Shown here in pieces: positions 3,637 through 63,541 of a stretch of 64,000 bases of DNA; positions within the stretch are counted from its first letter, which is position 1, and each line of letters begins with the position of its first letter. Origin of the DNA: Bacteroidota bacterium (GTDB taxonomy: Bacteria > Bacteroidota > Bacteroidia > Chitinophagales > Chitinophagaceae); contig JAGWRO010000040.1 in NCBI GenBank assembly GCA_028876495.1, forward strand, positions 62,001-126,000, given 5' to 3'. The notes under the pieces are model-generated. The model had not been told where the DNA came from, did not search any database, and worked only from the letters and a program-made list of their open reading frames with translations. A program made the position numbers and the translations under genes.

Positions 3637-3669
3637 CAGTAAACCAACAAATATTTTGAATTTTTAATT
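3637..3669 (-). repeat. 33-bp intergenic element, copy 1
   Basis: Read on the minus strand it starts AATTAAAAATT and ends GGTTTACTG, 33 bases in all. It lies directly after the lon terminator and before the fucose operon. See the finding on the dispersed element. Confidence 0.65.
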
Positions 3670-3785
3670 TAATAAAACGTCAGAGACAATAAATGGCTTA
3701 AGATGATTTATGAGAAAGATAATTTCCGATTTCTTTTTTATTAATAATGACTTAATTTGTACTTCATTTAATTATAACGTATAAA

Positions 3786-4118
3786 ATGAGATATTGCTTT
3801 GCGCTTGATTTAAAAGATGATGAAACATTGATTCATGAATATGAAAAATTTCATCAAAATGTATGGCCTGAAATTATTAATTCTATTAAAGATGCCGGAA
3901 TTACCAATATGGAAATTTACCGGGTTTCCAATCGTCTTTTTATGATCATGGAAACCGATGAAAACTTTTCTTTTGAAAGAAAAAATGCAATGGATAATGC
4001 CAATCCAAAAGTTCAGGAGTGGGAAGTGTTGATGTGGAAATACCAACAAGCGCTTCCTGCAGCAAAACCCGGAGAAAAATGGATGTTAATGAACAAAATC
4101 TTAGATCTTAATAAATAA
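3786..4118 (+). CDS. L-fucose/L-rhamnose mutarotase family protein (first gene of fucose operon)
   Basis: A 110-residue protein of the RhaM/DUF718 ferredoxin-like fold family, which interconverts the alpha and beta anomers of 6-deoxyhexoses. Family features are the opening RYCFALDLKDD, the EYEKFHQNVWPEI segment with the catalytic-type His and Trp, and the METDENF strand. Position at the head of a fucose operon, three bases before the fucP start, argues for L-fucose rather than L-rhamnose as substrate; that is inference. An anomer exchanger fits a pathway whose first dehydrogenase may accept only one ring form. No strong promoter consensus is visible, though CTTAATTTG near 3751 is close to a -7 box. 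Confidence 0.88.
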   Translation: MRYCFALDLKDDETLIHEYEKFHQNVWPEIINSIKDAGITNMEIYRVSNRLFMIMETDENFSFERKNAMDNANPKVQEWEVLMWKYQQALPAAKPGEKWMLMNKILDLNK

Positions 4119-4121
4119 ACA

Positions 4122-5378
4122 ATGGCCATTACTACTATTACTCCGGTTACTTCAGTGTCATCCGGAAGCCCCAAAAACAACTATGTATTTCCCTTGATAT
4201 TAGTTACTTCCTTGTTTTTTTTATGGGGATTGGCTTATGGCCTTCTTGATGTATCGAATAAACATTTCCAGGAAACGTTGCATATTGATAAGGCGCGGTC
4301 AACCTTGTTGCAAATGTCTTATTTCGGCGCTTATTTTCTGATCGCTTTGCCCGCGGGAATTTTCATGAACCGCTTTGGTTACAAAAAAGGAATTATTACC
4401 GGCCTGCTTTTATACGCTACCGGCGCTTTCCTTTTTTACCCTTCTGCCCAAATTTCAAGTTTTAATTTCTTTTTATTGTCGACATTTGTTCTTGCTTCCG
4501 GACTCGCATTTCTTGAAACTGCTTCCAACCCATATGTTACTGTTTTGGGAGATCCAAAAACTTCTGAATTCAGGTTAAATCTTGCACAGAGTTTTAATGG
4601 TGTCGGATCTCTTATAGGCCCTATTATTGCAGCGAATGTTTTCTTTGCCGGTTCTACAGATGTTACCTCGCAACTGGATTCTGTAAAAATAGTTTATCTC
4701 GTTATCGGAGTGGTTGTATTAACGGTGGCGATTATTTTTTGGAAAACGCCTTTGCCTGAAATTAAGGAAGATAAAATGGTTAAAGACGTAGAGCAAATTA
4801 AGAAACCGTTATTTAAACATCCTCACTTTACAGGTGCAATTCTCGCGCAGTTTTTTTATGTGGCGGCCCAGGTAGGAATTGCCGCTTTGTTTTTGAATTA
4901 TTGTACAGAGAATAATAAAACGATTAGCAATGCCGACGGGGCTTACTTGCTTTCTGTGAGTTTATTGTTATTTACAATGGGCCGTTTTGCCGGTACCGCA
5001 CTGATGAAAAAATTCGCCCCTAATATTTTATTGTTTCTTTTCGCCCTGGTAAATATCCTCCTTTGCATTTTGGTAATATTAAACAAAGGCTGGTTATCGG
5101 TATATTCACTCATGACGGTTTTCTTTTTTGAATCTATCATGTTTCCCACCATCTTTGCATTAGGGGTAAAAGATTTAGGACATCATACCAAAAAAGCGTC
5201 ATCATTTATTATCATGTCTATTGTGGGCGGGGCGATAATGCCTTATTTGATGGGACTTGCAGCAGAAAAATATTCAACTGCTGTTTCCTATTTTATTCCT
5301 GCTATTTGTTTTGTTGTAGTTGCATGGTATGGATGGAGCGGCTATAAAATTAATTCAACCAATCAACCAATAGCTTAA
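4122..5378 (+). CDS. fucP: L-fucose:H+ symporter, FucP-type MFS permease
   Basis: A 418-residue inner-membrane sugar/proton symporter of the FucP branch of the major facilitator superfamily, with about twelve hydrophobic segments. Diagnostic motifs are the first helix with Asp43 (WGLAYGLLDVSNKHFQ), the FGAYFLIALPAG segment, and GLAFLETASNPYVTVLG, which carries the Glu corresponding to the proton-coupling Glu of E. coli FucP. It follows the mutarotase by 3 bases and precedes an SDR gene by 3 bases, so all three are surely co-transcribed. FucP-like proteins can also carry other sugars, but the neighbouring GH29 fucosidase supports fucose. Confidence 0.92.
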   Translation: MAITTITPVTSVSSGSPKNNYVFPLILVTSLFFLWGLAYGLLDVSNKHFQETLHIDKARSTLLQMSYFGAYFLIALPAGIFMNRFGYKKGIITGLLLYATGAFLFYPSAQISSFNFFLLSTFVLASGLAFLETASNPYVTVLGDPKTSEFRLNLAQSFNGVGSLIGPIIAANVFFAGSTDVTSQLDSVKIVYLVIGVVVLTVAIIFWKTPLPEIKEDKMVKDVEQIKKPLFKHPHFTGAILAQFFYVAAQVGIAALFLNYCTENNKTISNADGAYLLSVSLLLFTMGRFAGTALMKKFAPNILLFLFALVNILLCILVILNKGWLSVYSLMTVFFFESIMFPTIFALGVKDLGHHTKKASSFIIMSIVGGAIMPYLMGLAAEKYSTAVSYFIPAICFVVVAWYGWSGYKINSTNQPIA

Positions 5379-5381
5379 ACA

Positions 5382-6146
5382 ATGTTTTCATTAAAAAATA
5401 AGAAAGCTGTCATAACAGGCGCCGGTAGCGGAATTGGAAAAGCTATTGCGATTCTGTTTGCAAAGCAACAAACTGAAGTTCACGTCATTGACTTAAGTGA
5501 TGAAAATGCGCAATCAACAGTAAGCGAAATTAATTCAACCCAGGGCAAAGTTTTTTCCTATGCATGCAACGTAGCGAATCAAAAGGAAGTGATTTCAACT
5601 TTTAAAAAAATAGGTGCTCATGATATTTTAATTAATAACGCCGGTATTGCACACATCGGGAAAGCTGATACCACTTCTGAAGAAGACTTTGACCGGGTAA
5701 TCAATGTAAATGTAAAAGGCGTTTATAATTGTCTTTACGCTTCTCTTCCGTTAATGAAAAAAAATGGAGGCGGAACTATAATAAACATGGCTTCAGTTGC
5801 CGCGTGGTGCGGCCTTGACGACAGGTTTGTTTATTCAACTGCCAAAGGCGCTGTTGCAGCGATGACCTTATCGGTTGCCAAAGATTATATTCATGATAAT
5901 ATAAGATGTAATTCTATTTCTCCCGGAAGGGTGCATACTCCTTTTGTGGATGGTTTTCTCAAAAAAAATTATCCCGGCAAAGAGAAAGAAATGTTTGAAA
6001 AATTATCTGCAACACAACCGATCGGACGAATGGCAAAGCCGGAAGAAGTTGCAGCCTTAGCCTTATATTTATGCAGTGATGAAGCTTCCTTCATTACCGG
6101 AACAGATTACCCGATTGATGGCGGATTTTTAACTTTAAATACTTAA
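5382..6146 (+). CDS. SDR-family dehydrogenase of the fucose pathway (probable 2-keto-3-deoxy-L-fuconate or L-fucose dehydrogenase)
   Basis: A classical short-chain dehydrogenase of 254 residues. The nucleotide-binding motif TGAGSGIG is at 12-19, Asp37 after the second strand suggests NAD+ over NADP+, NNAG is at 85-88, and the catalytic triad is complete (Ser138, Tyr151, Lys155 in YSTAK). The C-terminal GTDYPIDGG is typical. In the non-phosphorylating fucose route two NAD(P)-dependent steps are needed: oxidation of L-fucose to the lactone and of 2-keto-3-deoxy-L-fuconate to the 2,4-diketo acid. This operon has exactly two SDR genes. I favour the keto-deoxy acid step here because the other SDR (9204-9974) resembles proteins annotated as fucose dehydrogenase, but the assignment could be reversed. 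Confidence 0.85.
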   Translation: MFSLKNKKAVITGAGSGIGKAIAILFAKQQTEVHVIDLSDENAQSTVSEINSTQGKVFSYACNVANQKEVISTFKKIGAHDILINNAGIAHIGKADTTSEEDFDRVINVNVKGVYNCLYASLPLMKKNGGGTIINMASVAAWCGLDDRFVYSTAKGAVAAMTLSVAKDYIHDNIRCNSISPGRVHTPFVDGFLKKNYPGKEKEMFEKLSATQPIGRMAKPEEVAALALYLCSDEASFITGTDYPIDGGFLTLNT

Positions 6147-6153
6147 ATTATCG

Positions 6154-6186
6154 AAATGAAAAACTTTTTTATTTGTTTGTTTACTG
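6154..6186 (+). repeat. 33-bp element-like sequence overlapping the GH29 start codon
   Basis: AAATGAAAAAC at 6154-6164, fifteen bases, then TTTACTG ending at 6186 give exactly the intergenic element's length and both ends. Here it includes the ATG and first ten codons of the fucosidase. It may be a true copy recruited into the coding start or chance in an AT-rich signal-peptide region. Confidence 0.35.
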
Positions 6187-7481
6187 TAATGATCATTACT
6201 AACAGTAATGCACAAACGTATTCTCCCACGCCGGCAAATCTTGAAGCGCGCAGCCATTTCCAGGATGCTAAATTTGGATTATTTATTCATTGGGGCGTGT
6301 TCAGCATATTGGGTGATGCCGAATGGGTAATGCAGAATGAAAACATTCATGTAAAAGATTATACACGGCTGATGCATTTTTTTAATCCTACTCAATTTGA
6401 TGCACATGCATGGGTGAGTATGGCAAAAAATGCAGGCATGAAATATATCACTCTAATTACAAGACACCATGATGGTTTCAGCATGTGGAATACCAAATAT
6501 TCTGATTTTAATATCATGAATACGCCGTATCATAAAGATGTAGTAAAGATGATTGTTGATGAGTGCCATAAACAGCACATGAAAATATTTTTGTATTATT
6601 CTTTGCTTGACTGGAGAAGAAATGATTATTCATATTGGACGGGAAGAACAGGGCAGGGCACAGGCCGCACGGTTCATGGAGATTGGAATCATTATATAAA
6701 ATTCATGGAAAATCAATTAACAGAATTGCTTACCAACTACGGTAAGATCGACGGTATTTGGTTTGATGGATATTGGGACCAGACAGCTCCTGAAGGTGCC
6801 AAGGACAGATCTCCAAAAGTGGATTGGCATTTACCGGAAATTTATGCGTTGATTCATAAACTTCAGCCAGCGTGTTTAATTGGCAACAATCATCACATGA
6901 CTCCTTTTCCGGGTGAAGATTTTCAAATGTTTGAAAAGGATTTGCCTGGGCAGAATAAATCGGGCCTCAGTTTCCAAAAACCTTCAGAGCAACTTCCCTT
7001 GGAAACGTGTGAAACCATGAACAATTCCTGGGGATTTAATATTAAAGATGACAATTACAAATCAGTTCCACAACTTATCCATTACATTGTAAATGCTGCA
7101 GGAAGAAATGGCAATTTTTTATTGAATGTCGGTCCTCAGCCTAATGGAATTATTCAACAGGAATTCAGGGATACTTTAAAGGAGGTTGGAAAATGGATGG
7201 CTAAATATGGCGCGAGTATTTACGGAACCCGTGGAAATATAATGCCGGCGCAGGATTGGGGCGTGGTTACTTCAAAAGATAAAACAATTTATGTTCATCT
7301 TTTGGATCCGTCAAAATCATCGGTGGTAATTGAAGGGGTTCCTGAAAAGATTAAAAGTTGCATAGTAATGGGAACGGATCACAAAGTAAAATTTGACCAA
7401 AACAATTCGCAGGTAACCCTTAACCTGGAAGGAGTTAGTAAAAACGACGTAGACACAATTATTCAAATTATATTGAAGTAA
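6156..7481 (+). CDS. Secreted alpha-L-fucosidase, GH29
   Basis: A 441-residue glycoside hydrolase family 29 enzyme that removes terminal alpha-L-fucose from glycans by a retaining mechanism. It begins with a signal peptide (MKNFFICLFTVMIITNSNAQ), so it acts in the periplasm or outside. The catalytic TIM barrel has the family opening FGLFIHWGVFSILG, the TRHHDGFSMW motif and IWFDGYWD, where Asp204 is the expected nucleophile. NAAGRNGNFLLNVGP is another strong family signature, and a short beta-sandwich follows to the C-terminus. It lies between the SDR and FAH-family genes, so released fucose feeds the same operon's importer. No SusC/SusD pair accompanies it. Confidence 0.96.
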   Translation: MKNFFICLFTVMIITNSNAQTYSPTPANLEARSHFQDAKFGLFIHWGVFSILGDAEWVMQNENIHVKDYTRLMHFFNPTQFDAHAWVSMAKNAGMKYITLITRHHDGFSMWNTKYSDFNIMNTPYHKDVVKMIVDECHKQHMKIFLYYSLLDWRRNDYSYWTGRTGQGTGRTVHGDWNHYIKFMENQLTELLTNYGKIDGIWFDGYWDQTAPEGAKDRSPKVDWHLPEIYALIHKLQPACLIGNNHHMTPFPGEDFQMFEKDLPGQNKSGLSFQKPSEQLPLETCETMNNSWGFNIKDDNYKSVPQLIHYIVNAAGRNGNFLLNVGPQPNGIIQQEFRDTLKEVGKWMAKYGASIYGTRGNIMPAQDWGVVTSKDKTIYVHLLDPSKSSVVIEGVPEKIKSCIVMGTDHKVKFDQNNSQVTLNLEGVSKNDVDTIIQIILK

Positions 7482-7496
7482 AAGCAAAAGGAAATT

Positions 7497-8342: not shown

Positions 8343-8348
8343 TTAGCG

Positions 8349-9176
8349 ATGATTGATGCACACGTTCATTTTTGGAAGTATAATAAAACAAGGGATGCCT
8401 GGATTACAGATGATATGAAAATCATTCAGCGGGATTTTCTGCCTGCCGATTTGCAACCAATTATTTCTGAAAATAATGTCGATGGTGTAATTGCTGTGCA
8501 GGCTGATCAGAGTGAGAATGAAACCAATTTTTTGCTTTCGGTTGCAAATGACAATAATTTCATAAAAGGAATTGTTGGATGGGTAGATCTGCAAAATGAA
8601 AATATCGAAAATAGGTTGCTTTACTATTCTCAATTCCCGATAATAAAAGGTTTCAGGCATATTGTACAGGCAGAACCAGCAGGCTTTTTGAAAAATAAAA
8701 AATTTCTGAATGGTGTGCAGGTTCTAAAAAAATATGACTTTACCTATGATGTGCTTATTTACGAAACTCAATTGAAGGAAGCTGTTGAATTTGTGAATTA
8801 CTTCCCGGCTCAAAAATTTATTATTGATCATGGTGCCAAACCGTCAATAAGGAACAAAAGTATAACAGAATGGAAAAAATGGATGACTGAAATTTCAAAA
8901 CGTAAAAACATTTTTTGTAAACTTTCAGGGTTGATAACGGAAGCGAAGTTGAATCAATGGGAAGAAAAAAATCTTTATCCATATCTTGATGTGATTTTTG
9001 AATCTTTTGGAATAGAAAGAATTGTATTTGGAAGTGACTGGCCGGTAATGCTTCTTAGCGGTAATTACAAAAAATGGAAAGAGTTGCTGGAAAATTATAT
9101 GGCTGGTTTTTCGTCCGAAGAAAAAGAAAAAGTATTTACGCAGAATGCCATTGATTTTTACAATCTAAACTTCTAA
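8349..9176 (+). CDS. Amidohydrolase-family lactonase, probable L-fuconolactonase
   Basis: A 275-residue COG3618-type amidohydrolase, a TIM-barrel hydrolase. The metal and active-site residues are visible: the HxH pair in DAHVHFW near the N-terminus, the His of GFRHIVQ, FIIDHGAKP, and the late Asp in FGSDWPV. Members next to fucose genes hydrolyse L-fucono-1,5-lactone to L-fuconate, the step after fucose dehydrogenase, and this position fits that. It starts 6 bases after the upstream stop. Whether the enzyme prefers fuconolactone over rhamnono- or galactonolactone cannot be told from sequence. Confidence 0.87.
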   Translation: MIDAHVHFWKYNKTRDAWITDDMKIIQRDFLPADLQPIISENNVDGVIAVQADQSENETNFLLSVANDNNFIKGIVGWVDLQNENIENRLLYYSQFPIIKGFRHIVQAEPAGFLKNKKFLNGVQVLKKYDFTYDVLIYETQLKEAVEFVNYFPAQKFIIDHGAKPSIRNKSITEWKKWMTEISKRKNIFCKLSGLITEAKLNQWEEKNLYPYLDVIFESFGIERIVFGSDWPVMLLSGNYKKWKELLENYMAGFSSEEKEKVFTQNAIDFYNLNF

Positions 9177-9203
9177 ACAATCTAAACCCTCTAAACGATA
9201 AAA

Positions 9204-10966: not shown

Positions 10967-10999
10967 AAACAAAAATTTCTTTTATTTATACGTTTACTG
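10967..10999 (+). repeat. 33-bp intergenic element, copy 2
   Basis: It begins AAACAAAAATT and ends CGTTTACTG. It lies 18 bases after the esterase stop, in the gap between convergent esterase and tex genes. Confidence 0.7.
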
Positions 11000-11044: not shown

Positions 11045-13294
11045 TTATTTTCCAAACTTTTTTCGCAATAAACTCATTGCATCTTCCATTGAGGCGCTTT
11101 CTTTTTCTTTAGTAGTAAAAGAATTGGAATGGCTTTTATTTTTTCCGGGTACCTTCTGTTGGCTTTTTTCAGGTAATTCCTGTGTTTGTTTTATTGATAA
11201 AGCGATTCGTTTTCTTATCATATCAACCTCAACTACTTTCACCATTACCTTATCATTCAATTTTAAAACCTCTCCGGGATCAGAAATGTATTTATGAGCA
11301 ATTTCAGAAACATGTACCAATCCATCCTGCTTTACGCCAATATCAACAAAAGCACCAAAGCGGGTAAGATTGGTTATTTGTCCAGGCACAATCATTCCTG
11401 TTTTTACATCTTCTATTGAATAAATATTGGCAAACTCAAAAGCCTGCGCCTCCCTACGCGGATCTATACCTGGTTTTTTTAATTCTTTTAAAATATCATG
11501 TAAAGTGTGCAACCCGATGTTTTCGTTTACGTATGACTGTGAGTTTATTTTATTTACAATACTTTCATTACCGATAATTTCCTTTACAGCTATGCCGGCA
11601 TCTTTGGCCATTTGTTCAACCACTTTATAAGATTCCGGATGTACACCACTTTCATCCAAAGGATTGTCGCCGTTTTTAATTCGTAAAAAACCTGCACATT
11701 GCTCATAGGCTTTGTCGCCCAGCCTTGCCACTTCTTTCAGTTGTTGCCGGTTGGTAAAGCGGCCTTTTTCTTTTCGATAGGTTACAATATTTTCTGCAAT
11801 AGAAGGTCCGATACCACTTACATAACTCAATAAATATTTACCTGCTGTATTCAAATTTACACCTACTGAATTCACACAACTTACCACTGTGTGATCCAGT
11901 TTTTCTTTCAACCTTACCTGGTTTACATCATGCTGGTACTGGCCTACACCAATACTTTTCGGATCTATTTTTACCAGTTCGGCCAGCGGATCCATTAACC
12001 TTCTTCCAATGCTCACAGCGCCACGAACGGTAATGTCCTGGTCCGGGAATTCTTCACGACCAATTTCTGATGCAGAATAAATAGAAGCTCCATCTTCATT
12101 TACCAAAAAAACCGGTAAGACTGTATTCAATCCTTTAATAAATTGTTCCGTTTCTCTGCCCGCTGTTCCATCACCAATTGCAAATGCTTCTATTCCAAAT
12201 TCACTCACATAACTTTCAATCTTATGTTTTGCTTCATCCAGTTTATAATTTTTTTCATGAACAAAAATGACATCTGTTTTTTGCAAATCACCTTTCTCAT
12301 CCAGCACAACTACTTTACAACCTGTGCGATATCCCGGATCGATTGCTAATATTTTTTTACTGCCTAAAGGCGATGAAAGCAAAAGCTGGCGAAGGTTTTC
12401 AGCAAATACGCTTATCGCTTCTTCATCTGCCTTTGTCTTTAAAGCCATCCTGAATTCGCTTTCAAGACTTGGCTGTAATAATCGCCGGTAGGCATCTTTA
12501 ATTGCTTTTTTTACGTGTTCTGCCGCTTCATTGTTTGCTTTTATAAATTGATCTTCAATTTTTAATAGGGCTGTTTCTTCTTCAGGCGCGATGTTCATTT
12601 TTAAAAAACCTTCAATAAACCCACGCATAATCGCTAATATTCTATGCGAAGGAATTTTAGAAACCGGTTCAGAAAAATCGAAATAATCTTTGTACTTAAT
12701 TCCGGCTTCTTCTTTATCATTTAAAATTTTGCTTTGAACAGTTGCTGTCTGCTCAAATAATTTTCTCATTTTAGCGCGTACTTCAGCATCTTCATTGATT
12801 ACTTCAGCAATAATATCGCGCGCACCATGCAAAGCCATTTCTGCATCAGTTATTTTTTCATTCAAAAATGTTTGCGCTTCGGTTTCGGGAACAATATTTT
12901 GCTGCTGTAATAACAATAAAGCCAGTGGTTCCAGGCCATTTTCACGTGCCGTTTGCGCTTTTGTTTTTCGCTTTGGTTTGTAAGGCAAATAAATATCTTC
13001 CAATTCGTTTAGCGTGGTAGCGTCATTGATTTTTTGCTGCAGAAAATCCGTCATTTTTCCCTGCTCATTAATCGTTTTTTCAATAAAGGTTTTTCTATCA
13101 GCAAATTCCTGTTGAAACTTTGCTTCTTCCTGTATGTTTTGAATTTGAACCTCGTCCAAGGCGCCGGTTTTATCTTTTCGGTAACGCGCGATGAAGGGAA
13201 TGGTAGCGCCTTCAGCTAATAATTCTAATACGGCAAGTACCTGCTTTTCCGAAATTGATAATTTGGCTGAAACGAAAGCTGAATAGGTTTTCAT
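11045..13294 (-). CDS. tex: Tex-family RNA-binding transcription accessory protein
   Basis: A 749-residue Tex/YhgF homologue, a conserved nucleic-acid-binding protein linked to transcription and RNA turnover. Visible domains are the helical Tex N-terminal region (to about 200, with GATIPFIARYRKD), the YqgF/RNase H-like domain (from about 325, KILAIDPGYRTGCKVVVLD), helix-hairpin-helix repeats around 490-560 (GKYLLSYVSGIGPSIAENIV), and a C-terminal S1 domain around 645-715 (PGQITNLTRFGAFVDIGVKQ). A basic, Ser/Lys-rich tail follows. It is monocistronic and convergent with the fucose operon. Length and domain order are standard. Confidence 0.96.
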   Translation of the reverse strand: MKTYSAFVSAKLSISEKQVLAVLELLAEGATIPFIARYRKDKTGALDEVQIQNIQEEAKFQQEFADRKTFIEKTINEQGKMTDFLQQKINDATTLNELEDIYLPYKPKRKTKAQTARENGLEPLALLLLQQQNIVPETEAQTFLNEKITDAEMALHGARDIIAEVINEDAEVRAKMRKLFEQTATVQSKILNDKEEAGIKYKDYFDFSEPVSKIPSHRILAIMRGFIEGFLKMNIAPEEETALLKIEDQFIKANNEAAEHVKKAIKDAYRRLLQPSLESEFRMALKTKADEEAISVFAENLRQLLLSSPLGSKKILAIDPGYRTGCKVVVLDEKGDLQKTDVIFVHEKNYKLDEAKHKIESYVSEFGIEAFAIGDGTAGRETEQFIKGLNTVLPVFLVNEDGASIYSASEIGREEFPDQDITVRGAVSIGRRLMDPLAELVKIDPKSIGVGQYQHDVNQVRLKEKLDHTVVSCVNSVGVNLNTAGKYLLSYVSGIGPSIAENIVTYRKEKGRFTNRQQLKEVARLGDKAYEQCAGFLRIKNGDNPLDESGVHPESYKVVEQMAKDAGIAVKEIIGNESIVNKINSQSYVNENIGLHTLHDILKELKKPGIDPRREAQAFEFANIYSIEDVKTGMIVPGQITNLTRFGAFVDIGVKQDGLVHVSEIAHKYISDPGEVLKLNDKVMVKVVEVDMIRKRIALSIKQTQELPEKSQQKVPGKNKSHSNSFTTKEKESASMEDAMSLLRKKFGK

Positions 13295-13398: not shown

Positions 13399-13436
13399 AA
13401 AAAAAACTGCTATTGGTTTTTGAGGACAATAGCAGT
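13399..13436 (-). terminator. Intrinsic terminator downstream of the zinc-enzyme gene
   Basis: A perfect 10-bp stem (ACTGCTATTG at 13406-13415, CAATAGCAGT at 13427-13436) with an 11-base loop. On the minus strand it is followed by a run of eight T's, 23 bases after the stop at 13460. Confidence 0.88.
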
Positions 13437-13459
13437 GAGCAAAGTAATAAGTCAATATT

Positions 13460-14464
13460 TTATTCTTCCCTTTCTCCGGTTGAAAGATTTAATAACTTGC
13501 CTTTGTTCCAGGCTTTTAATTCACGTTTGTAATTCTTTTTATTTTGTTTGGTAAGATGCGGATCGTCTAAAGAAATAAGATCAGGACTGCCACCGTTAAC
13601 CCACGCTGTATACCAATAAGAGGCTACATCATAAATAGATAATTGCAATTGTTTTTCAACCATTCCTCCCAGCGCTTCATTAAATTGTTTTGCATATTCA
13701 TCAGAGAAAACAGGTGAGTTATAAAATTTTATAACGTTGCCGCTGCTGTCTCTTTTATACATATTTTCTTCAGTAAACCTGCTTCTCACTTCTTTTTCTT
13801 TTGCCAAAAGTGTATCAACCAGCGAATGAGATTGTTCAATCATTTTAAAAGTTTCATCAGGAATATTTTTGATATATTTTGCCTGCGGTGTTTTAAAATT
13901 ATAAGAACCTCCAAACCTGTCAGGTAGCGTAGATTCCCACAATGAATGAACTCCTTTTTGACCTGTTAACTGACCATTATAATTGGAAGAAGTATGCAAG
14001 GGCATGTGCGCGTCTGCCACATAATGTGATAATTCTGCGGAAAGAAAAAGTATTCCTGATTTATCTCTTTTCTTAAATGCATAAGTAAGTTTTTCAGTAA
14101 GATTTTCAATGTACCAGGGTAAATAACCGGTTTTGTTTAAGAAAGCACTGTCGTATTTTTCAAAAGCTTCTTTGGCGGTTTTAGGGAAAGCGCTTAAAGG
14201 GATTTTGAAATCTTCTACATCAATATAATGACGAGGCGGTTCTTTCCTGTCATTCAAAAGCCCTCTTCTCAAATCCGGTACTACCGCGCCTTCTGTAATA
14301 AAATCAATATGGTTATAATAGAATTTTTGCATTGGCGCAGGAAGTGCAAACACAGCCGCACGACTGATGTGTTTGTGACCCCATTGGCCCCAGGCAAATG
14401 CTAAAGTAATGTAACCGGAAATCAATAAAAACAAAAAAACGATTTTTAAAATCTTAGTTTTCAT
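13460..14464 (-). CDS. Secreted S1/P1-like zinc-dependent nuclease / phospholipase C family protein
   Basis: A 334-residue exported protein. The signal peptide (MKTKILKIVFLFLLISGY onwards) ends with AFA just before WGQWGHKHI, so Trp25 would be the mature N-terminus, as in S1/P1 nucleases where the N-terminal Trp binds zinc. Further zinc ligands are expected in GHKHISRAA, PPRHYID and the motif SHYVADAHMPLHTSSN. This fold is shared by zinc-dependent phospholipases C and S1/P1 nucleases, and I cannot choose between phosphodiester and phospholipid substrates. The C-terminal part is rich in Lys and Asn. It is the last gene of the minus-strand block and ends in a strong terminator. Confidence 0.85.
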   Translation of the reverse strand: MKTKILKIVFLFLLISGYITLAFAWGQWGHKHISRAAVFALPAPMQKFYYNHIDFITEGAVVPDLRRGLLNDRKEPPRHYIDVEDFKIPLSAFPKTAKEAFEKYDSAFLNKTGYLPWYIENLTEKLTYAFKKRDKSGILFLSAELSHYVADAHMPLHTSSNYNGQLTGQKGVHSLWESTLPDRFGGSYNFKTPQAKYIKNIPDETFKMIEQSHSLVDTLLAKEKEVRSRFTEENMYKRDSSGNVIKFYNSPVFSDEYAKQFNEALGGMVEKQLQLSIYDVASYWYTAWVNGGSPDLISLDDPHLTKQNKKNYKRELKAWNKGKLLNLSTGEREE

Positions 14465-14644
14465 GAAGAGACTTTTTGAGATAAAGAGAGTTGATTGAAT
14501 AAAATGATTTTGTGGCGATAAATATAAGAATCAATAGCGGATTCAAACTTAATAATAGTATGAATTTGCTGAATCAAAGACATAAGTGGGAGATAGTGAA
14601 CAAACAAATTGTAGCAATTTTTAATTAACTGTAGGATTGCCATT

Positions 14645-17678: not shown

Positions 17679-17711
17679 CAGTAAACCAGGAAATAAAGCC
17701 AATTTTTATTT
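17679..17711 (-). repeat. 33-bp intergenic element, copy 3
   Basis: Read on the minus strand it begins AAATAAAAATT and ends GGTTTACTG. It starts 5 bases after the stop of the kinase gene, between that gene and the ureohydrolase. Confidence 0.75.
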
Positions 17712-19327: not shown

Positions 19328-19360
19328 TAGTAAACAAACAGATATTAGAAATTTTTATTT
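19328..19360 (-). repeat. 33-bp intergenic element, copy 4
   Basis: Read on the minus strand it begins AAATAAAAATT and ends TGTTTACTA. It lies in the divergent gap before the DUF1080 gene. Confidence 0.7.
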
Positions 19361-19392: not shown

Positions 19393-19446
19393 AGTGCCTC
19401 TGTAGAAACAGAGGCACTTTACCAAAACTAACTGCTTATGAGTTAG
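19393..19446 (+). promoter_or_regulatory. Tandem hairpins in the DUF1080 upstream region
   Basis: The first hairpin has a perfect 11-bp stem (AGTGCCTCTGT at 19393-19403, ACAGAGGCACT at 19408-19418) with a 4-base loop. Ten bases on, CTAACT (19428-19433) pairs with AGTTAG (19441-19446). There is no T run of terminator length after either. They lie 150-200 bases before the DUF1080 start and could be a leader RNA structure or an attenuator. Confidence 0.5.
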
Positions 19447-24712: not shown

Positions 24713-24855
24713 AATAGTTATTGGTTTTAAAGTGTGTGTTAGCCAGTTTTTAATACCAATTAGTATCTTAAACTGAAATAGGAAGAAAGCAATACGAAGG
24801 ATTAAAGATAATAGATTAGAGATACGTAAGAAAAAATATTTTTTACGATAAGACA

Positions 24856-24888
24856 AAATAAAAATCGGTACAATAAGTTGATTTACTG
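24856..24888 (+). repeat. 33-bp intergenic element, copy 5
   Basis: It begins AAATAAAAATC and ends GATTTACTG. It lies in the divergent gap between the acyltransferase-like gene and the DPP-IV gene. Confidence 0.75.
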
Positions 24889-24923
24889 TAAGCTGTAAAT
24901 GGTTTTTTAAGAAAATAACAAGG

Positions 24924-24952
24924 TTGCATATTACATAAAATCGTTTAATTTG
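24924..24952 (+). promoter_or_regulatory. Possible promoter of the DPP-IV gene
   Basis: TTG at 24924-24926 and TTAATTTG at 24945-24952 approximate the Bacteroidetes promoter, one base off the TAnnTTTG box, 45 bases before the start codon. Confidence 0.4.
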
Positions 24953-24997
24953 CAACTCACTTTCCTGCTTTACAATTCTTAGACCCACACTATCAAT

Positions 24998-27175: not shown

Positions 27176-27208
27176 AAATAAAAATCTTTCTTATTTATTT
27201 GTTTACTG
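27176..27208 (+). repeat. 33-bp intergenic element, copy 6
   Basis: It begins AAATAAAAATC and ends TGTTTACTG. It lies 19 bases after the DPP-IV stop. Confidence 0.8.
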
Positions 27209-29454: not shown

Positions 29455-29487
29455 CAGTAAACCAATAAAAAACAAAGATTTTTATTT
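29455..29487 (-). repeat. 33-bp intergenic element, copy 7
   Basis: Read on the minus strand it begins AAATAAAAATC and ends GGTTTACTG. It fills most of the 58-base gap between two convergent stop codons (29441 and 29500). Confidence 0.8.
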
Positions 29488-29499
29488 TATTTACAGCGA

Positions 29500-30090
29500 T
29501 TATTCCTCGTTTCTTTCTTTCAATAATTTCTCTATAGTAATCGGATAAAACTGGTGTTCCAGTTGATGAATTTTATGGGCAAGGGTCTCAGCAGTTTCAT
29601 TTTTATTTAAATCGCATTTTGCCTGGAAGATGATTTCGCCGTGATCATATTGGTCATCTACAAAATGGATAGTAATGCCGCTTTCTTTTTCCTTTGCATT
29701 AATTACAGCAGAATGAACTGCGCTTCCATACATGCCTTTTCCGCCATAAGCCGGTAATAAGGCAGGATGAATGTTGATGATCTGATGTGGAAAATGCTGA
29801 ACCAGGATTTGCGGAATTTTCCATAAAAATCCGGCAAGCACAACCAGGGCCGGATCATATTTTTGAATCTCTGCCAGGTACCCTGTTTCTTTGAAAAGAT
29901 CTTTTTGAATTAACAAAACAGGAATTTGTTCGTTTGCTGCAATTTGCAATACGCCGGCTTTGGGATTATTACAAACGATAAGCACCACCTTGACTTTTTC
30001 ATCCCTTTTGAAATAATTAATGATTTGACGTGCATTACTTCCCGCTCCCGAAGCAAAGATGACAATATTGTTTTCAACGTTTTTCTTCAT
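29500..30090 (-). CDS. purN: Phosphoribosylglycinamide formyltransferase
   Basis: PurN transfers a formyl group from 10-formyl-tetrahydrofolate to glycinamide ribonucleotide in purine synthesis. The protein (196 residues from the chosen start) has the phosphate-binding loop GAGSNARQI, the conserved Asn-His-Asp set in NIHPALLPAYGGKGMYG and FVDDQYDHGEII, and the QAKCDL strand. I chose the ATG at 30090 (MKKNVENNIVIFASG), which gives the family's usual length; an in-frame ATG at 30126 would add 12 residues. It stands alone, not in a pur operon. Confidence 0.95.
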   Translation of the reverse strand: MKKNVENNIVIFASGAGSNARQIINYFKRDEKVKVVLIVCNNPKAGVLQIAANEQIPVLLIQKDLFKETGYLAEIQKYDPALVVLAGFLWKIPQILVQHFPHQIINIHPALLPAYGGKGMYGSAVHSAVINAKEKESGITIHFVDDQYDHGEIIFQAKCDLNKNETAETLAHKIHQLEHQFYPITIEKLLKERNEE

Positions 30091-36919: not shown

Positions 36920-37510
36920 ATGATTAAAAAATTTGTTGTTGGTTCCTTCGAAGATGAAAAAGATTTATTTCCGGCTGTAAAAAATGTACGGAGAGCAGGT
37001 TATAAAATTCATGACGTTTATACACCATTTCCTATCCATGGCCTTGATAAAGCAATGGGTTTAAGAGAAACCAGTTTACATACCGCGGGCTTTATCTTCG
37101 GAATTACAGGAACCTCTATCGCTGTTGGTGGAATGGGCTATATCTTTACTACCGACTGGCCTTTGAATATTGGCGGTAAACCTCATTTCCCTTTGCCGGC
37201 TTTTATCCCTATCACTTTCGAACTTACTGTTTTAATGTCGGCCGTAGGAATGGTTTATACTTTTTTATGGTTGTGCAAAATGATGCCGGGTGTTAAAAAA
37301 CATCATTTTAATTTAAGATCAACCGATGACCTCATGACGATGGTTATTGAGTGTACTCCTAATTCAAATCCTCTTGAAATTGAAAACTTTTTAAAACAAA
37401 ATGGCGCTATAGAAATCAATACACAGGATGCAGAGGAAGGCTGGTGGTTTGGCAGATATGACAAAGAACAAAAATTATACAGAGCTGAAGAAGTAGCATT
37501 AGAAGAGTAA
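36920..37510 (+). CDS. actD: Alternative Complex III subunit D (DUF3341)
   Basis: A 196-residue DUF3341 protein with two central transmembrane helices (about residues 55-75 and 95-120) and soluble segments on either side. The N-terminal VVGSFEDEKDLFPAVKNVRRAGYKI and C-terminal PLEIENFLKQNGAIEI parts are ferredoxin-fold-like. It packs against ActC in known complexes and binds no cofactor. Order and length are as expected for the operon. Confidence 0.93.
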   Translation: MIKKFVVGSFEDEKDLFPAVKNVRRAGYKIHDVYTPFPIHGLDKAMGLRETSLHTAGFIFGITGTSIAVGGMGYIFTTDWPLNIGGKPHFPLPAFIPITFELTVLMSAVGMVYTFLWLCKMMPGVKKHHFNLRSTDDLMTMVIECTPNSNPLEIENFLKQNGAIEINTQDAEEGWWFGRYDKEQKLYRAEEVALEE

Positions 37511-37591
37511 AACAGGAATCTCAATTATTTGTTGATTTACTTTTTAGCATTTTAAAACTGATTAAAAAAATTCGAAATAAGAATTTTAGAT

Positions 37592-44224: not shown

Positions 44225-44257
44225 AAATAAGAATTAAAATAAAAAGTTTGTTTACTG
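44225..44257 (+). repeat. 33-bp intergenic element, copy 8
   Basis: It begins AAATAAGAATT and ends TGTTTACTG. It starts 5 bases after the short subunit III stop, inside the cox cluster. Confidence 0.7.
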
Positions 44258-47440: not shown

Positions 47441-47473
47441 AAATGAAAATCGTGCAAATTTGTTACTTCACTG
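47441..47473 (+). repeat. 33-bp intergenic element, copy 9
   Basis: It begins AAATGAAAATC and ends ACTTCACTG. It lies 24 bases past the TonB stop and 30 bases before the ATL start. Confidence 0.6.
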
Positions 47474-48369: not shown

Positions 48370-48402
48370 AAATCAGAATTCCGGTTTTTTATTCGTTTAC
48401 TG
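48370..48402 (+). repeat. 33-bp intergenic element, copy 10
   Basis: It begins AAATCAGAATT and ends CGTTTACTG. It lies in the divergent gap upstream of TonB. Confidence 0.65.
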
Positions 48403-55087: not shown

Positions 55088-55120
55088 CAGTAAAGAAACA
55101 AACAAAAGTGATTTTAGTTT
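55088..55120 (-). repeat. 33-bp intergenic element, copy 11
   Basis: Read on the minus strand it begins AAACTAAAATC and ends TCTTTACTG. It lies 27 bases past the glycosyltransferase stop. Confidence 0.7.
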
Positions 55121-57375: not shown

Positions 57376-57407
57376 TTGTTGTACACCTCTAATTTCTCCT
57401 AAATTTG
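57376..57407 (+). promoter_or_regulatory. Probable promoter of the gcvT operon
   Basis: TTGTTG at 57376-57381, 18 bases, then TAAATTTG at 57400-57407, an exact TAnnTTTG box, 21 bases before the gcvT start. It is the best promoter match in the window. Confidence 0.7.
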
Positions 57408-57428
57408 CACCACTTTTAAATTAGTAAT

Positions 57429-58514: not shown

Positions 58515-58545
58515 GTATCAATTTTGAAAAATAATTTTTAGAGAA

Positions 58546-59286: not shown

Positions 59287-59355
59287 AACTATCTTAATTT
59301 TTCACAATATCTCCAGATAACTTCAATCTGGCTTTTACCTCTTTTAAATTTTGTT

Positions 59356-59363
59356 TATTTTTG
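59356..59363 (+). promoter_or_regulatory. Possible -7 box of the SNF2 gene
   Basis: TATTTTTG matches TAnnTTTG exactly, 67 bases before the TTG start; the -33 region is weak. Confidence 0.4.
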
Positions 59364-59429
59364 CAAATTGCTTTTTTCGCAGTTGGATATTGTAAATAAG
59401 AGCGTTTTTAATTATAAACATTATTTTTT

Positions 59430-62400
59430 TTGGCACTACCCTATTTTATTAAATACATATATAATTCCGGAACTGATGAAGTGATTCGCCGGGGAAAGAA
59501 AATTTATTCACAACGATTTGTTGAACTGTTAGATCATGATGAACTGATGCATTCGCTAAACTTTAGGGTAAGGGATGATAGTTATAATACCTTTTATAAA
59601 GTGCAGGTTCAAAAATATGATGACCCGAAAACCTTTTCAATTCGCTGTTCATGCCCTTATAACATCAGTGACATTTGCCGCCATGAAGCCGCTGCCTTAA
59701 TGCAACTTCAGGATTTGGTGGACAAAAATCTTCTGGATTCAAACGAAGCAACTCCTGTATATCATCAAAAGCATACGATTGTTAAGATTAAATATATTGA
59801 TCTTAAAATGATAAGGATACTTACAGGCATGGAAAATTATACTGCGGCTGAAGATATCTTAAGGAAAAATAAATGCAATATCCTCGAAGCGGCCAATGAA
59901 AGAGTGGAAGCGGATCTTGAATTAAATGATAAAACTTTTCACATCATTCTTCAAAAAAATGACGAGCGCAATTTTGATACTTCCTGTAATTGCAACGAAG
60001 GTGCCCATCCCTTGTGTAAACACAAAACTGTATTATTTCTTCAATTACTGAATAACTGGGGGCCTAATTATTTTGACAGCATCCGCAACTGGGATAAGGA
60101 AAAAAATAAATTGCTGGAAGGATATGGTTACAGCCTTGATGATGATCTTTCAGGCAAGTTTGAATTCATTTATAAAGAAGGAAAACCTTTTTTAAAGGTA
60201 ATTGATTCTTCGATTAGAAGAGTTTCTACTTCTTTGAACCTACACCCACAGCGGGAAGCAGAAGCAGAAACGGTTGAAGTGGAAACAAAAATCGCCCGGA
60301 TAGTAAACAAACAAATAACGCTGGTTTTTAATTCGAATGAAAAATCATTTCCTTTTGTTTCATTTGAAGTGGTGCAGGGAGAATTTGATGAAGAGGAAAA
60401 TAAATTTGTTGGCAGGATAGAGAAACTTGATCTTTCAAAATTTATCAATACCACCAATTTTACTGATGGTGATAAACAACTGTTGCAACAGGCAAGAAAG
60501 CTACAACAATCAGAGATTAATAAATATTTAAACCGCAATTCTCCTTTCAGTGGATATTGGGAAAATATTATTTATGATGAAAAGGATGAATTACCGCAGG
60601 AAACAAAAATTTTGATAGCAGAGTTTGTTCATCCAAAACTTAAAAGGATTTTAAATGAAAACGAGGATAATCCTGTTTTTTATTTACCAAAAGGGAAACG
60701 ATTTACGACTCAAAACCTGGAACAGATTGATTTATCGGCCGAAAACCCGGTTATTGAATTTACAGTATCGCCTTCAGATAAAGGTTACGTGATGGAAAGC
60801 CAGATTATTTTAGACCAGGAAAAAGTAAAGTTGTCAGATAATGAATGGAACAACGATCTGCTTTTTCTGCATGATAAAACTTTTTACTTGTGGGAAAGAT
60901 CTGAGCAGATACTCGTTGCGGAAAAATTCAAAAACAAAATTCAAATTCCTACTAATCAATGGCCCGCTCTTTTAAAAGAAATGATCATTCCGTTAGCAGA
61001 TGAATATTCTGTTTCTTTCGCATCTTCTTTAATTAGAGAAACAAAAGAAGGCCAGCCGGATATCAGTATTATGCTGATTGAGAAAGGCGATTACCTAGTG
61101 TTTCAGCCGGTTTTTACTTACAAAGGTTTTAGTGTAAAAGCGAATGATAAGGATACGATTCTTGTTCCTGATAATGATAAGGTGCTGCTGGTAAAACGCA
61201 ACGTAGAAGCCGAAAATCAATTTATTTCAAAACTGGGAAGCCTTCATTCGCAGTTTATCAACCAGCCACAAAATAAAAGCCTTGTTTTAAAAGGCGCCGA
61301 TGTGCTTAAAAACAACTGGTTCTTTTTATTTGTGGATGCCATGAAAGAAATGAAAGTGCCGGTGTATGGTTTTGATGCGCTTAAAAATTTCCGGTTTAAC
61401 ACAGCCAAGCCTTACACTCATATTCACCTTAGTAGTGGGATGGATTGGTTTGATGCCAAAGTGGAACTTGCTTTTGGTGAACAACGTATCGGCATTGCCG
61501 AAATTCAAAAAGCGCTTACAAACAAGCAATCATTTGTGCAGTTAAATGATGGTACGCTCGGCATTTTGCCGGATGAATGGATCAAAAAATACGCGTTACT
61601 TTTTAAAGTGGGCGAAGGCAAAAATAATAACCTTCGGCTTTCAAAGTTTCACCTGAGTGTGATAGATGAATTATATGAACAGCGTGATGAACAGGAACTT
61701 TCTTTTGAATTGGATGAAAAATATGAGAAGCTTCGAAATTTTAAAAGTATTCCTGAGATTCCGATTCCACTGGAATTGGAAAACAGGCTTCGGCCATATC
61801 AATTGGCCGGGTTTCATTGGTTGAATTATTTAAATACAGTGGGTTGGGGTGGTATTCTGGCTGATGACATGGGATTAGGAAAAACGGTTCAGGCGCTTAG
61901 TATGCTTCAGCATTTTGCAGAAGAGGAAGGTAGCTTAAAAGCATTGGTTGTGTGCCCAACTACTTTGATTTATAACTGGGAAAACGAGATTCGGAAATTT
62001 ACTCCATCATTGAGTTGGCGTATCCACCACGGAAACACACGTGCAAAAAGGAAAGAAGATTTTGGCGATGAAAATATTATTATCACTACTTATGGAACCT
62101 TAAGAAGCGACGTGCAGATGCTGATGAAAATCCCATTTGATTATATTGTTTTGGACGAATCGCAGGCTATAAAAAACCCGGCATCAAAAGTAACAAGGGC
62201 AGCAGGACTTTTAAAAGCGCAAAACCGTATATGCATGAGTGGTACGCCATTGCAGAACAATACCTTCGATATTTATGCCCAGATGAATTTTTTAAATCCC
62301 GGATTGCTGGGGAATGTTGAGTTTTTTAGAAATGAATTTTCAACACCAATCGATAAATTGGGCGACCAGGAACAGAAAGATCATTTGAAAAAGTTACTGT

Positions 62401-63176
62401 ATCCTTTTATTTTAAGAAGAACGAAAGAGCAGGTTGCAAAAGATCTTCCTGAAAAAACTGAAACCATCCTTTATTGTGAAATGGAAAAAGCGCAAAGGAG
62501 TGTATATGAAAGTTACAGAAATGCATACAGAAGCAAAATTTTGGGTGTGATAGATGAACAGGGTGTTAACAGGTCGCAACTTACTATTTTGCAGGGCTTG
62601 ATGAAATTACGGCAGATATGTGATAGCCCGGCCATATTAAACGAAGATGAAAAATATGCCAATAATTCTATCAAGTTGGAAGAACTTACCCGCGAAATAA
62701 CTGAAAATATCGGTGAGCATAAAGCGCTTATATTTTCGCAATTCCTTGGCATGCTTTCGCTGATCAAACAAAAATTAAAAGAAAACGATATCGAATTTGA
62801 ATATTTTGACGGAAGTACTTCTCCGCCAGATAGGGAAAAAGCAATTCAAAATTTCCAGACAAATGAAAAATGCCGTGTATTTCTTATTTCACTGAAAGCC
62901 GGTGGAGTAGGGCTTAATTTAACGGCGGCTGATTATGTATATATTGTAGATCCGTGGTGGAACCCTGCTGTTGAACAACAGGCAATTGATCGTACTCATC
63001 GAATCGGGCAAACAAAAAATATCTTCGCTTACCGTATGATTTGCAAGGATACGATCGAGGATAAAATCTTGAAATTACAAGAGCGTAAGCGTATCCTTGC
63101 AAAAGAATTAATTTCTGATGATCAGACCTTTGTGAAAAGCCTGAGCAAAGAAGATGTAGAATATCTATTCAGTTAA
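59430..63176 (+). CDS. SNF2-family DNA-dependent ATPase with two SWIM zinc fingers
   Basis: A 1248-residue Swi2/Snf2 translocase. Two SWIM fingers of identical spacing lie at the N-terminus: Cys73, Cys75, Cys83, His85 (CSCPYNISDICRH) and Cys186, Cys188, Cys196, His198 (CNCNEGAHPLCKH). A middle region of about 500 residues resembles the bacterial SNF2-associated domain. The motor starts near residue 790 with Walker A DDMGLGKTVQ, the DEAH-like LDESQAIKNP, CMSGTPLQNN, then the C-terminal RecA lobe with LISLKAGGVGLNL and DRTHRIGQT. The start is TTG: a stop lies just upstream in frame and the first in-frame ATG is 39 codons in. A role in nucleoprotein remodelling or repair is inferred. Confidence 0.95.
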   Translation: MALPYFIKYIYNSGTDEVIRRGKKIYSQRFVELLDHDELMHSLNFRVRDDSYNTFYKVQVQKYDDPKTFSIRCSCPYNISDICRHEAAALMQLQDLVDKNLLDSNEATPVYHQKHTIVKIKYIDLKMIRILTGMENYTAAEDILRKNKCNILEAANERVEADLELNDKTFHIILQKNDERNFDTSCNCNEGAHPLCKHKTVLFLQLLNNWGPNYFDSIRNWDKEKNKLLEGYGYSLDDDLSGKFEFIYKEGKPFLKVIDSSIRRVSTSLNLHPQREAEAETVEVETKIARIVNKQITLVFNSNEKSFPFVSFEVVQGEFDEEENKFVGRIEKLDLSKFINTTNFTDGDKQLLQQARKLQQSEINKYLNRNSPFSGYWENIIYDEKDELPQETKILIAEFVHPKLKRILNENEDNPVFYLPKGKRFTTQNLEQIDLSAENPVIEFTVSPSDKGYVMESQIILDQEKVKLSDNEWNNDLLFLHDKTFYLWERSEQILVAEKFKNKIQIPTNQWPALLKEMIIPLADEYSVSFASSLIRETKEGQPDISIMLIEKGDYLVFQPVFTYKGFSVKANDKDTILVPDNDKVLLVKRNVEAENQFISKLGSLHSQFINQPQNKSLVLKGADVLKNNWFFLFVDAMKEMKVPVYGFDALKNFRFNTAKPYTHIHLSSGMDWFDAKVELAFGEQRIGIAEIQKALTNKQSFVQLNDGTLGILPDEWIKKYALLFKVGEGKNNNLRLSKFHLSVIDELYEQRDEQELSFELDEKYEKLRNFKSIPEIPIPLELENRLRPYQLAGFHWLNYLNTVGWGGILADDMGLGKTVQALSMLQHFAEEEGSLKALVVCPTTLIYNWENEIRKFTPSLSWRIHHGNTRAKRKEDFGDENIIITTYGTLRSDVQMLMKIPFDYIVLDESQAIKNPASKVTRAAGLLKAQNRICMSGTPLQNNTFDIYAQMNFLNPGLLGNVEFFRNEFSTPIDKLGDQEQKDHLKKLLYPFILRRTKEQVAKDLPEKTETILYCEMEKAQRSVYESYRNAYRSKILGVIDEQGVNRSQLTILQGLMKLRQICDSPAILNEDEKYANNSIKLEELTREITENIGEHKALIFSQFLGMLSLIKQKLKENDIEFEYFDGSTSPPDREKAIQNFQTNEKCRVFLISLKAGGVGLNLTAADYVYIVDPWWNPAVEQQAIDRTHRIGQTKNIFAYRMICKDTIEDKILKLQERKRILAKELISDDQTFVKSLSKEDVEYLFS

Positions 63177-63182
63177 AAGTAC

Positions 63183-63317
63183 TTAATGGGTAATAAAATC
63201 TTTCAACCGTTGAAATTCTTTCTTGTTTCCGGATTCAAAGAGGGCTACAAAATTTTTTGCAAGATGTTTGAAAAAAACTGATAAGGCTGACTTGCTCTCG
63301 TAAGCATCTTTTTTCAT
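63183..63317 (-). CDS. Small basic protein (44 residues)
   Basis: An ATG at 63317 opens a frame of 44 codons and stops at 63183-63185, seven bases from the convergent SNF2 stop. The protein reads MKKDAYESKSALSVFFKHLA, continues with KNFVALFESGNKKEF, and ends LKDFITH. It is basic and amphipathic, with codon use like its neighbours and no membrane helix. No family is recognised. It is too short to be sure from one genome. Confidence 0.5.
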   Translation of the reverse strand: MKKDAYESKSALSVFFKHLAKNFVALFESGNKKEFQRLKDFITH

Positions 63318-63346
63318 AATAATTCAATTTTAATGTAAACAATTTT

Positions 63347-63448
63347 TCAGGGGTTAAAGTAAAAAAATAAATTTTCTTTTTCCAATAGCAGATTCACTTC
63401 TTTATCCGTTGCGTAATTTCCGTAATATGTATTACCTGTTTTTTTCAT
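63347..63448 (-). CDS. Possible very small protein (33 residues)
   Basis: An ATG at 63448 opens 33 codons (MKKTGNTYYGNYATDKEVNL... ending FFYFNP) before the TGA at 63347-63349. It lies 29 bases upstream of the 44-residue gene on the same strand, and both begin MKK. The reading frame is short and could be chance in AT-rich DNA. Confidence 0.3.
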   Translation of the reverse strand: MKKTGNTYYGNYATDKEVNLLLEKENLFFYFNP

Positions 63449-63508
63449 GATTTAGGTATCAACATTGGAAAAAGATAACGCTCTTGAATTATGATTTATT
63501 GTATTTTG

Positions 63509-63541
63509 AAGTAAAGCAACAAATAATCGGGATTTTTATTT
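63509..63541 (-). repeat. 33-bp intergenic element, copy 12
   Basis: Read on the minus strand it begins AAATAAAAATC and ends GCTTTACTT. It lies between the small genes and the superoxide dismutase terminator. Confidence 0.7.

Follow-up and report, generated by a model that had tools for sequence, protein, structure and literature searches.

A 33-bp element abundant in one clade of Chitinophagaceae is probably a DNA uptake sequence

The stretch of DNA considered here (64,000 nucleotides, termed the window throughout) belongs to a Chitinophagaceae genome of 4.70 Mb in 99 contigs (G000), and it carries, mostly between its genes, many copies of a 33-bp element with two conserved ends. On the comparative evidence collected below this element is probably a DNA uptake sequence, i.e., a tag by which DNA of the own clade would be preferred in natural transformation. 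The proposal draws on the motif itself, its copy number, geometry and distribution, its restriction to one clade, its scarcity in acquired elements, the point mutations that gave rise to it at one place, and the presence of comEC and dprA in the genome.

All 12 copies that a sequence-only reading of the window had listed were recovered, with position and strand. Site coordinates are window positions and strands follow the orientation of that reading, in which the A/T segments come first and the TTTACTG end comes last, the opposite strand reading the core first. A matrix built from the 12 copies was refined by iteration on eight stretches of G000 totalling 1.264 Mb (the G000 sample), with a score of at least 15 as the cut-off for a site and the reversed matrix as control. 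When each was left out in turn, the listed copies scored 22.8 to 39.3, the top score in three order-2 Markov simulations of the window being 17.1, and the refined matrix found 21 sites in the window, the 12 listed ones and nine new ones (Table 1). The G000 sample holds 348 sites versus 2 with the reversed matrix, and the motif carries 29 bits of information. The lack of a genome-wide excess had been set beforehand as a result that would refute the element, but an excess is evident also from a loose pattern (AAATAAAAAT-N16-TTTACTG, at most 2 mismatches), which matches the whole genome 667 times (348+319) versus 28 (16+12) for the reversed pattern. Estimated by proportion rather than counted, the total in G000 is about 1,300 sites; the density in the sample is ~0.28 per kb and the mean spacing 3.6 kb. 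A strong consensus repeated hundreds to thousands of times, as expected of an uptake sequence, is thus apparent from both the pattern and the matrix counts.

Read on the opposite strand, the element consists of the core CAGTAAACnAAC, an A/T segment adjoining it, ~5 free bases and a longer A/T segment (GATTTTTATTT); in the column table of the 348 sites the centres of the two A/T segments lie ~13 bp apart, the middle of the element varies freely and its flanks are unconserved. The three positions of the core-adjoining segment read, in the orientation of Table 1, TTT in 236 and AAA in 43 of the 348 sites and are seldom mixed, which suggests that the stiffness of the tract matters rather than the reading of its bases. 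The constant length ascribed to the element is borne out, since the distance between the halves is the standard one in 227 of the 237 sites having a strong right half and variable spacing did not occur. The ending TTTACTG holds for nine of the 12 listed copies, the other three ending differently (Table 1). The statement that the element has no dyad also needs a qualification: among seven strands of five elements that were folded, five did no better than shuffles, whereas 27176(+) stands out (z -3.4) and 27176(-) leans the same way (z -1.7). An Rfam scan of the window returned nothing at gathering score, and viral contigs gave 0 exact matches to a stricter form of the pattern.

The placement of the sites was examined in the G000 sample, whose genes were called by a simple open reading frame (ORF) method. 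Intergenic location, as read for the listed copies, applies to 249 of the 348 sites, while 33 lie across a gene edge and 66 (19%) inside called genes, where 15,533 of 20,000 random positions (78%) fall; the sites are thus commoner outside genes yet also present inside them, as expected of an uptake sequence. Among the 764 gaps that are 33 bp or longer, 226 hold a site, and site density is highest in convergent gaps (1.79 per kb), followed by co-directional (1.01) and divergent ones (0.84; convergent versus divergent p 0.0001). Within co-directional gaps the sites point with the genes in 62 cases and against them in 77 (p 0.23), the median distance being 37 bp to the preceding stop and 162 bp to the following start, and with 188 of the 348 sites on the plus strand there is strand bias in none of the eight stretches. 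The lack of orientation bias, relative to either chromosome or genes, is likewise expected of an uptake sequence, and together with the avoidance of genes and promoters it argues that the element is not a transcription signal. These results agree with what had been read from the sequence, i.e., a fixed-length, multi-contact site that is not a promoter, a terminator or a repetitive extragenic palindromic (REP) element. The copies are also spread out: the next site lies within 500 bp in 6.5% of cases versus 24.9% under a length-weighted null, and the variation of spacing is lower than in all 300 length-weighted simulations.

How copies arise and persist can be followed among relatives. In 176,621 aligned bases of G000 and its sister species (G018), 38 of 42 sites are shared by the two genomes; of the other four, three lie at alignment gaps (one of them at 14594, for which a strong site is present in G018) and one is a weak site that decayed without gaps. 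Identity between the two species is 0.88 inside the sites versus 0.82 in their flanks (30 sites outside called genes, p 0.0008), and 23 of the 44 changes in 15 ungapped pairs fall in seven weak columns (10-14, 24 and 32), columns 6, 25 and 26 varying too. At 60301 the segment is present without the motif in G005, G011, G014, G001 and G003, gap-free over the element and 15 bases on each side, and at 60018 the motif fades stepwise across relatives (24.5 in G018, 20.5 in G014, 18.2 in G005, 9.7 in G011, 6.4 in G001 and -9.2 in G003). The gap-free segments at the former place and the grading at the latter indicate that copies there, among the few places tested, were made by base changes; an origin by point mutation and not by insertion, again expected of an uptake sequence, is therefore seen in one clear and one graded case. 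The segment at 62862 scores 17.5 in G018, 9.9 in G011, 5.4 in G003, -10.9 in G005 and -20.1 in G001. A separate observation concerns G001, which is not a carrier: two of its few sites (locus L284, 9176 and 14237, one decayed at 15.8) are located within or next to five genes whose third-position identity to G000 is 0.63 to 0.74 versus 0.52 (standard deviation 0.05, maximum 0.66) among 31 sampled genes. At this one locus the pattern is suggestive of a cross-species import, and codon bias could produce the same.

For comparison across genomes a strict pattern, with 1 mismatch allowed, was used on 20 genomes of the genus (G000 included) and 394 of the family. The motif is abundant in five of the 20, i.e., G000 (255 matches), G018 (249), G011 (220), G005 (124) and G014 (87), while four of the other 15 have 1 to 4 matches and eleven have none; the control gave 0 in all 20. 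These five carriers form one clade with support 98/97 in a tree of seven genomes built from one gene, with midpoint root, in which G001 stands next to the carrier clade and G003 is outermost by the midpoint. A strict match occurs in 14 of the 394 family genomes, the 13 besides G000 having 1 to 3 each, and single control matches occur in 6 of the 394. Among other relatives, 1.41 Mb taken from 80 loci of a Tex search and 8 of a pilus-ATPase search contained one site of score 12.4 and none higher, the reversed matrix giving 2. With the loose pattern the non-carriers stay near their controls except for G003, which has 60 loose matches versus 22 in the control and only 4 strict ones; this mild excess may reflect a decayed or variant tag, and the 100 kb of G003 sampled contain two sites scoring at least 16. 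Another genus of the family has a genome (G374) with three good copies of the tag within 17 kb (L276), where the only two strict matches of that genome lie; two of the copies adjoin a duplicated hairpin, and transfer or contamination may account for them. A different 33-base stretch, AAATAAAAATAGCC...TTAAATG, occurs nearly unchanged at five places in a genome outside the genus (G034) and may belong to a mobile element.

The seven largest gaps between sites in the G000 sample, 13 to 44 kb long, look mostly like acquired DNA, with conjugation, transposase or defence genes in five of them, as judged from Pfam scans that covered part of their genes (18, 10 and 9 proteins). On contig C78 the site-free 20-64 kb is a conjugative element with TraG, a relaxase and Rep3, its first part (20-45 kb) additionally containing ribonucleotide reductase and other genes, and the site-free 64-85 kb, with RadC and topoisomerase III, probably belongs to the same element. 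Over 20-102 kb of this contig (L242-L246) there are 2 sites versus 24 expected, with p 1e-8, a value that overstates the case since the region was picked as the largest gap. On contig C24 the site-free stretches comprise 219-241 kb with a relaxase, a conjugative coupling protein, ParB and an OLD-type ATPase, 174-192 kb with a transposase and metal-type efflux genes, and 135-148 kb with the defence genes of a Piwi-domain protein and Eco57I-type methylases. As a rough yardstick, no relaxase, transposase or conjugation family exceeded the cut-off among 20 proteins of the window and 10 of the comEC neighbourhood. The motif is accordingly scarce in recently acquired elements, as expected of an uptake sequence. 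Two of these regions merit attention in their own right. The part of C24 at 222-238 kb (L020 2095-17998) is a second tag-free mobile element, whose OLD-type ATPase adjoins a UvrD-like helicase, and at 140-147 kb (L016 447-7241) the Piwi-domain (Argonaute-like) protein directly adjoins two Eco57I-type methylase/restriction genes, an arrangement that may be a defence island.

The mechanism proposed for uptake sequences in the cited work is biased uptake plus recombination (PMC1626085, PMC7811141, PMC1939737, PMC7371117). In the present case a receptor on the surface or outer membrane would bind the core CAGTAAACnAAC and two stiff A/T segments, one adjoining the core and the other about one helical turn further, so that fragments with the tag would be taken in preferentially, and ComEC and DprA would then bring them to recombination. 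Base changes that improve a site would spread by recombination because tagged fragments enter more often, and the tag would accumulate where it is harmless. Receptor, uptake bias and drive are the steps that we infer; biased uptake with recombination would spread tags without selection on each of them, which fits many hundreds of copies in one clade. The inner-membrane and cytoplasmic competence genes expected with an uptake sequence are present, since G000 has both comEC and dprA: comEC was found in 18 of the 20 genus genomes (the misses, G002 and G014, are 59% and 72% complete) and dprA in 19 (the miss is G015).

Several results weigh against an uptake sequence. Both competence genes occur in carriers and non-carriers alike, so that they do not track the motif and are not specific to its carriers. 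Uptake sequences are known in two kinds, both read via type IV pili, and in the 20 genus genomes the type IV pilus ATPase (PF00437) never exceeded its cut-off (18 weak partial matches) and secretin (PF00263) was found in none, with 6 of 14 control genomes positive. No outer-membrane gene of the Riemerella type was seen among the 10 proteins scanned around comEC. A text pattern for a ComEA-like helix-hairpin-helix matched none of 949 sampled proteins, which says little. No dialect of the motif emerged in samples of the non-carriers G001 (300 kb), G003 (100 kb), G016 (160 kb) and G017 (220 kb), where a matrix with relaxed core and a search for gapped 4+4-mers were applied; both recovered the motif in G018, the 4+4-mer search also in G000, and the excess of over-represented 7- and 8-mers was too slight for a verdict. 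Close to the elements, G000 and G018 are no more identical than elsewhere (418 windows, Spearman 0.05, p 0.32). Most of the evenness of spacing is explained by a null of one site per gap (bar 16 doubles), even though under the stricter one-per-gap null neighbours closer than 2 kb are still few (21% versus 31%, 0 of 400 simulations). Finally, two of the largest site-free stretches, C78 85-102 kb and C24 148-163 kb, have outer-membrane/Sus-type genes and nothing mobile among the proteins scanned. The lack of pilus genes in these scans would count against uptake, but Riemerella anatipestifer, of the same phylum, is competent with no pilus homologues detected, and its transformation needs ComEC, DprA, ComF, RecA and four other proteins, one of them a predicted outer-membrane protein with a carboxypeptidase-regulatory domain (PMC8459023); its tonB mutants are impaired (PMC8383284). 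Apart from these considerations, intergenic words of the GGTT/TTTC type with a 7-bp period are strongly over-represented in G017 (L206-L216).

The main rival, itself unlikely, is a site bound inside the cell by a DNA-bending protein of the nucleoid or chromosome-organising kind, each site along the chromosome being kept by selection. Bending sites for nucleoid proteins such as IHF span ~35 bp and combine an A/T tract with a separate conserved block, and the fixed 33-bp multi-contact geometry with A/T tracts resembles them; the positions kept between sister species and the spread of the copies, which avoid genes, also speak for such a site. The core consensus of IHF is not evident in the motif. 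The absence of any orientation or strand preference speaks against such a site, and so do the abundance in five species of one clade with almost none in the next species out and the new site that arose by point mutation inside a gene; some hundreds of sites would each need selection. The nucleoid or chromosome-organising factor suggested from the sequence alone retains some probability, while spread by point mutation in one clade, lack of orientation and scarcity in conjugative elements together fit an uptake sequence better, the scarcity in acquired DNA being neutral between the two when taken by itself. An improbable alternative is a protein-bound road-block, or another unstructured terminator, that halts transcription arriving from either side. 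It would account for the median of 37 bp past the stop in co-directional gaps and for the enrichment in convergent gaps, but a place after stops is also expected from avoidance of promoters, and the 66 sites inside genes, the near-equal orientation (62 with and 77 against genes), the many gaps lacking a site and the strands that fold like shuffles do not agree with it; a terminator was rejected on orientation, location and folding.

Still less probable is a signal of the Chi kind, read within the cell by a nuclease-helicase for recombination or self-recognition. The mean spacing of 3.6 kb is near that of Chi, but Chi is an octamer, which 33 bp and 29 bits far exceed, and the element has no strand bias. 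A small mobile unit copied into intergenic gaps, similar to a miniature inverted-repeat transposable element (MITE) or a REP, can hardly be credited: the number of copies and their confinement to one clade look like those of an expanding repeat, yet the variable middle, the unconserved flanks and the shared positions with decay in place do not, and for the copy at 60301 this suggestion of the earlier reading is contradicted by the gap-free segments of five relatives. A repeat of the REP or MITE type was rejected on the latter ground and on folding. A promoter or operator serving a single sigma factor or regulator, which the bipartite layout with constant spacing recalls, is just as hard to credit given the lack of a preferred orientation to genes and the lowest density in divergent gaps, and a promoter was rejected on orientation and location.

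The copies in the window are collected in Table 1. A hairpin at 19396-19442 (GTGCCTCTG-TAGAAA-CAGAGGCAC) belongs to a second, genus-wide repeat that is perhaps terminator-like; with its flank it shows 91% identity over 47 bp in G001, G003, G005, G011 and G014, carriers and non-carriers alike, and 86% over 59 bp in G018, and it had no Rfam match. The Tex protein encoded at 11045-13294 is 77-95% identical to that of G001, G005, G011, G014 and G018 (some in pieces) and 79% to that of Taibaiella chishuiensis, while the genus-mate G016 reaches only 56% and no whole match was found in the other genus genomes; this patchy distribution perhaps reflects exchange.

Table 1. Copies of the 33-bp element in the window, with matrix scores and with scores of the corresponding segment in relatives
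Feature	Position	Strand	Score	Location and relatives
33-bp element, listed	3637..3669	-	35.8	intergenic; conserved in G018
33-bp element, not listed	6154..6186	+	37.8	overlaps start of fucosidase ORF 6156-7481 (gene caller used here starts the gene later)
33-bp element, not listed	8594..8626	+	28.5	inside gene 8349-9176; conserved in G018
33-bp element, listed	10967..10999	+	32.1	intergenic
weak 33-bp element, not listed	13433..13465	-	22.1	overlaps gene edge; strong in G018, 35.5
33-bp element, not listed	14594..14626	-	29.4	intergenic; G018 39.1
33-bp element, listed	17679..17711	-	38.3	intergenic
33-bp element, listed, TTTACTA ending	19328..19360	-	34.2	intergenic; G018 34.9
33-bp element, listed	24856..24888	+	34.7	called intergenic, yet within ORF 23603-24988; G018 25.0
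33-bp element, listed	27176..27208	+	37.9	intergenic; G018 36.4
33-bp element, listed	29455..29487	-	39.0	intergenic; G018 35.7
weak 33-bp element, not listed	29907..29939	+	18.5	inside gene; G018 24.8
33-bp element, not listed	37510..37542	+	32.5	first base is last base of gene 36920-37510
33-bp element, listed	44225..44257	+	31.3	intergenic; G018 25.6; not in G014, G001, G003
33-bp element, listed, TTCACTG ending	47441..47473	+	29.6	called intergenic
33-bp element, listed	48370..48402	+	34.1	intergenic; G018 35.7
33-bp element, listed	55088..55120	-	31.1	intergenic; G018 26.0
weak 33-bp element, not listed	60018..60050	+	21.6	in SNF2-helicase gene; graded among relatives
33-bp element, not listed	60301..60333	-	33.8	in SNF2-helicase gene; G018 33.5; five other relatives -14.4 to 4.4
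weak 33-bp element, not listed	62862..62894	+	20.7	in SNF2-helicase gene
33-bp element, listed, TTTACTT ending	63509..63541	-	39.0	intergenic

Two families, Pasteurellaceae and Neisseriaceae, have been described as strongly preferring a short motif (PMC7811141). The sequence-only reading knew of no described equivalent of the element in its group, and the open-licence literature searched agrees: among the papers listed it yielded no established uptake sequence for Bacteroidota and no paper on DNA uptake sequences with Chitinophagaceae, and for an uptake signal sequence in Flavobacteri- one study that raises the question and settles no motif (PMC7965970). Of the known systems, the uptake signal sequence (USS) of Haemophilus influenzae and other Pasteurellaceae is the closest in build. 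It has a core followed on one side by two A/T segments about a turn apart, ~31-33 bp in total, and in Haemophilus the two AT-rich segments are centred 12 bp apart (PMC1626085). As in Pasteurellaceae, there are many hundreds of copies, without orientation bias and commoner outside genes than expected, which originate by point mutation and are scarce in newly acquired DNA (PMC1626085, PMC7811141). The core letters are different, CAGTAAACnAAC here versus AAGTGCGGT or ACAAGCGGT there, the density is ~0.28 per kb compared with close to one per kb there, and 19% of sites lie in genes compared with the 65% quoted for H. influenzae (PMC1939737); moreover, the present genomes belong to a different phylum, and neither a pilus ATPase over cut-off nor secretin nor a dialect was found in the scans described above. 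With the DNA uptake sequence (DUS) of Neisseriaceae the element shares abundance across related species without orientation bias (PMC1626085), and an atypical distribution in conjugative elements, which has been used there to find integrative and conjugative elements (PMC7371117), whereas there is no likeness in sequence and the DUS receptor is the pilin ComP (PMC3868556). Without the core letters and the pilus machine of these families, the motif is not a member of either.

Transformation in Riemerella is the nearest comparison within the phylum. Own DNA outcompetes other DNA there, R. columbina preferring its own, and the only candidates listed are A/T-rich k-mers without an assigned role, with no motif established (PMC7965970); ComEC and DprA, needed there, are present here, and the pilus homologues are undetected there as well (PMC8459023), while the outer-membrane proteins of Riemerella were not seen beside comEC among the 10 proteins scanned here. 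On balance, and by a narrow measure, we favour a third, independent origin of self-recognition in transformation, i.e., a 33-bp uptake sequence of Bacteroidota that would have converged on the geometry of the USS, would rely for its reading on an outer-membrane machine without a pilus, which may resemble the TonB-receptor-like system proposed for Riemerella, and would be recent, the next species being nearly tag-free. If this is so, the shared geometry would stem from the passing of stiff DNA through the outer membrane rather than from ancestry, and the self-preference seen in Riemerella could be explained. The motif could then serve as bait for the outer-membrane DNA receptor of the phylum, and the carriers with their nearly tag-free neighbour would offer a recent origin on which the question of drive versus selection could be addressed, opening the birth of uptake specificity to study.

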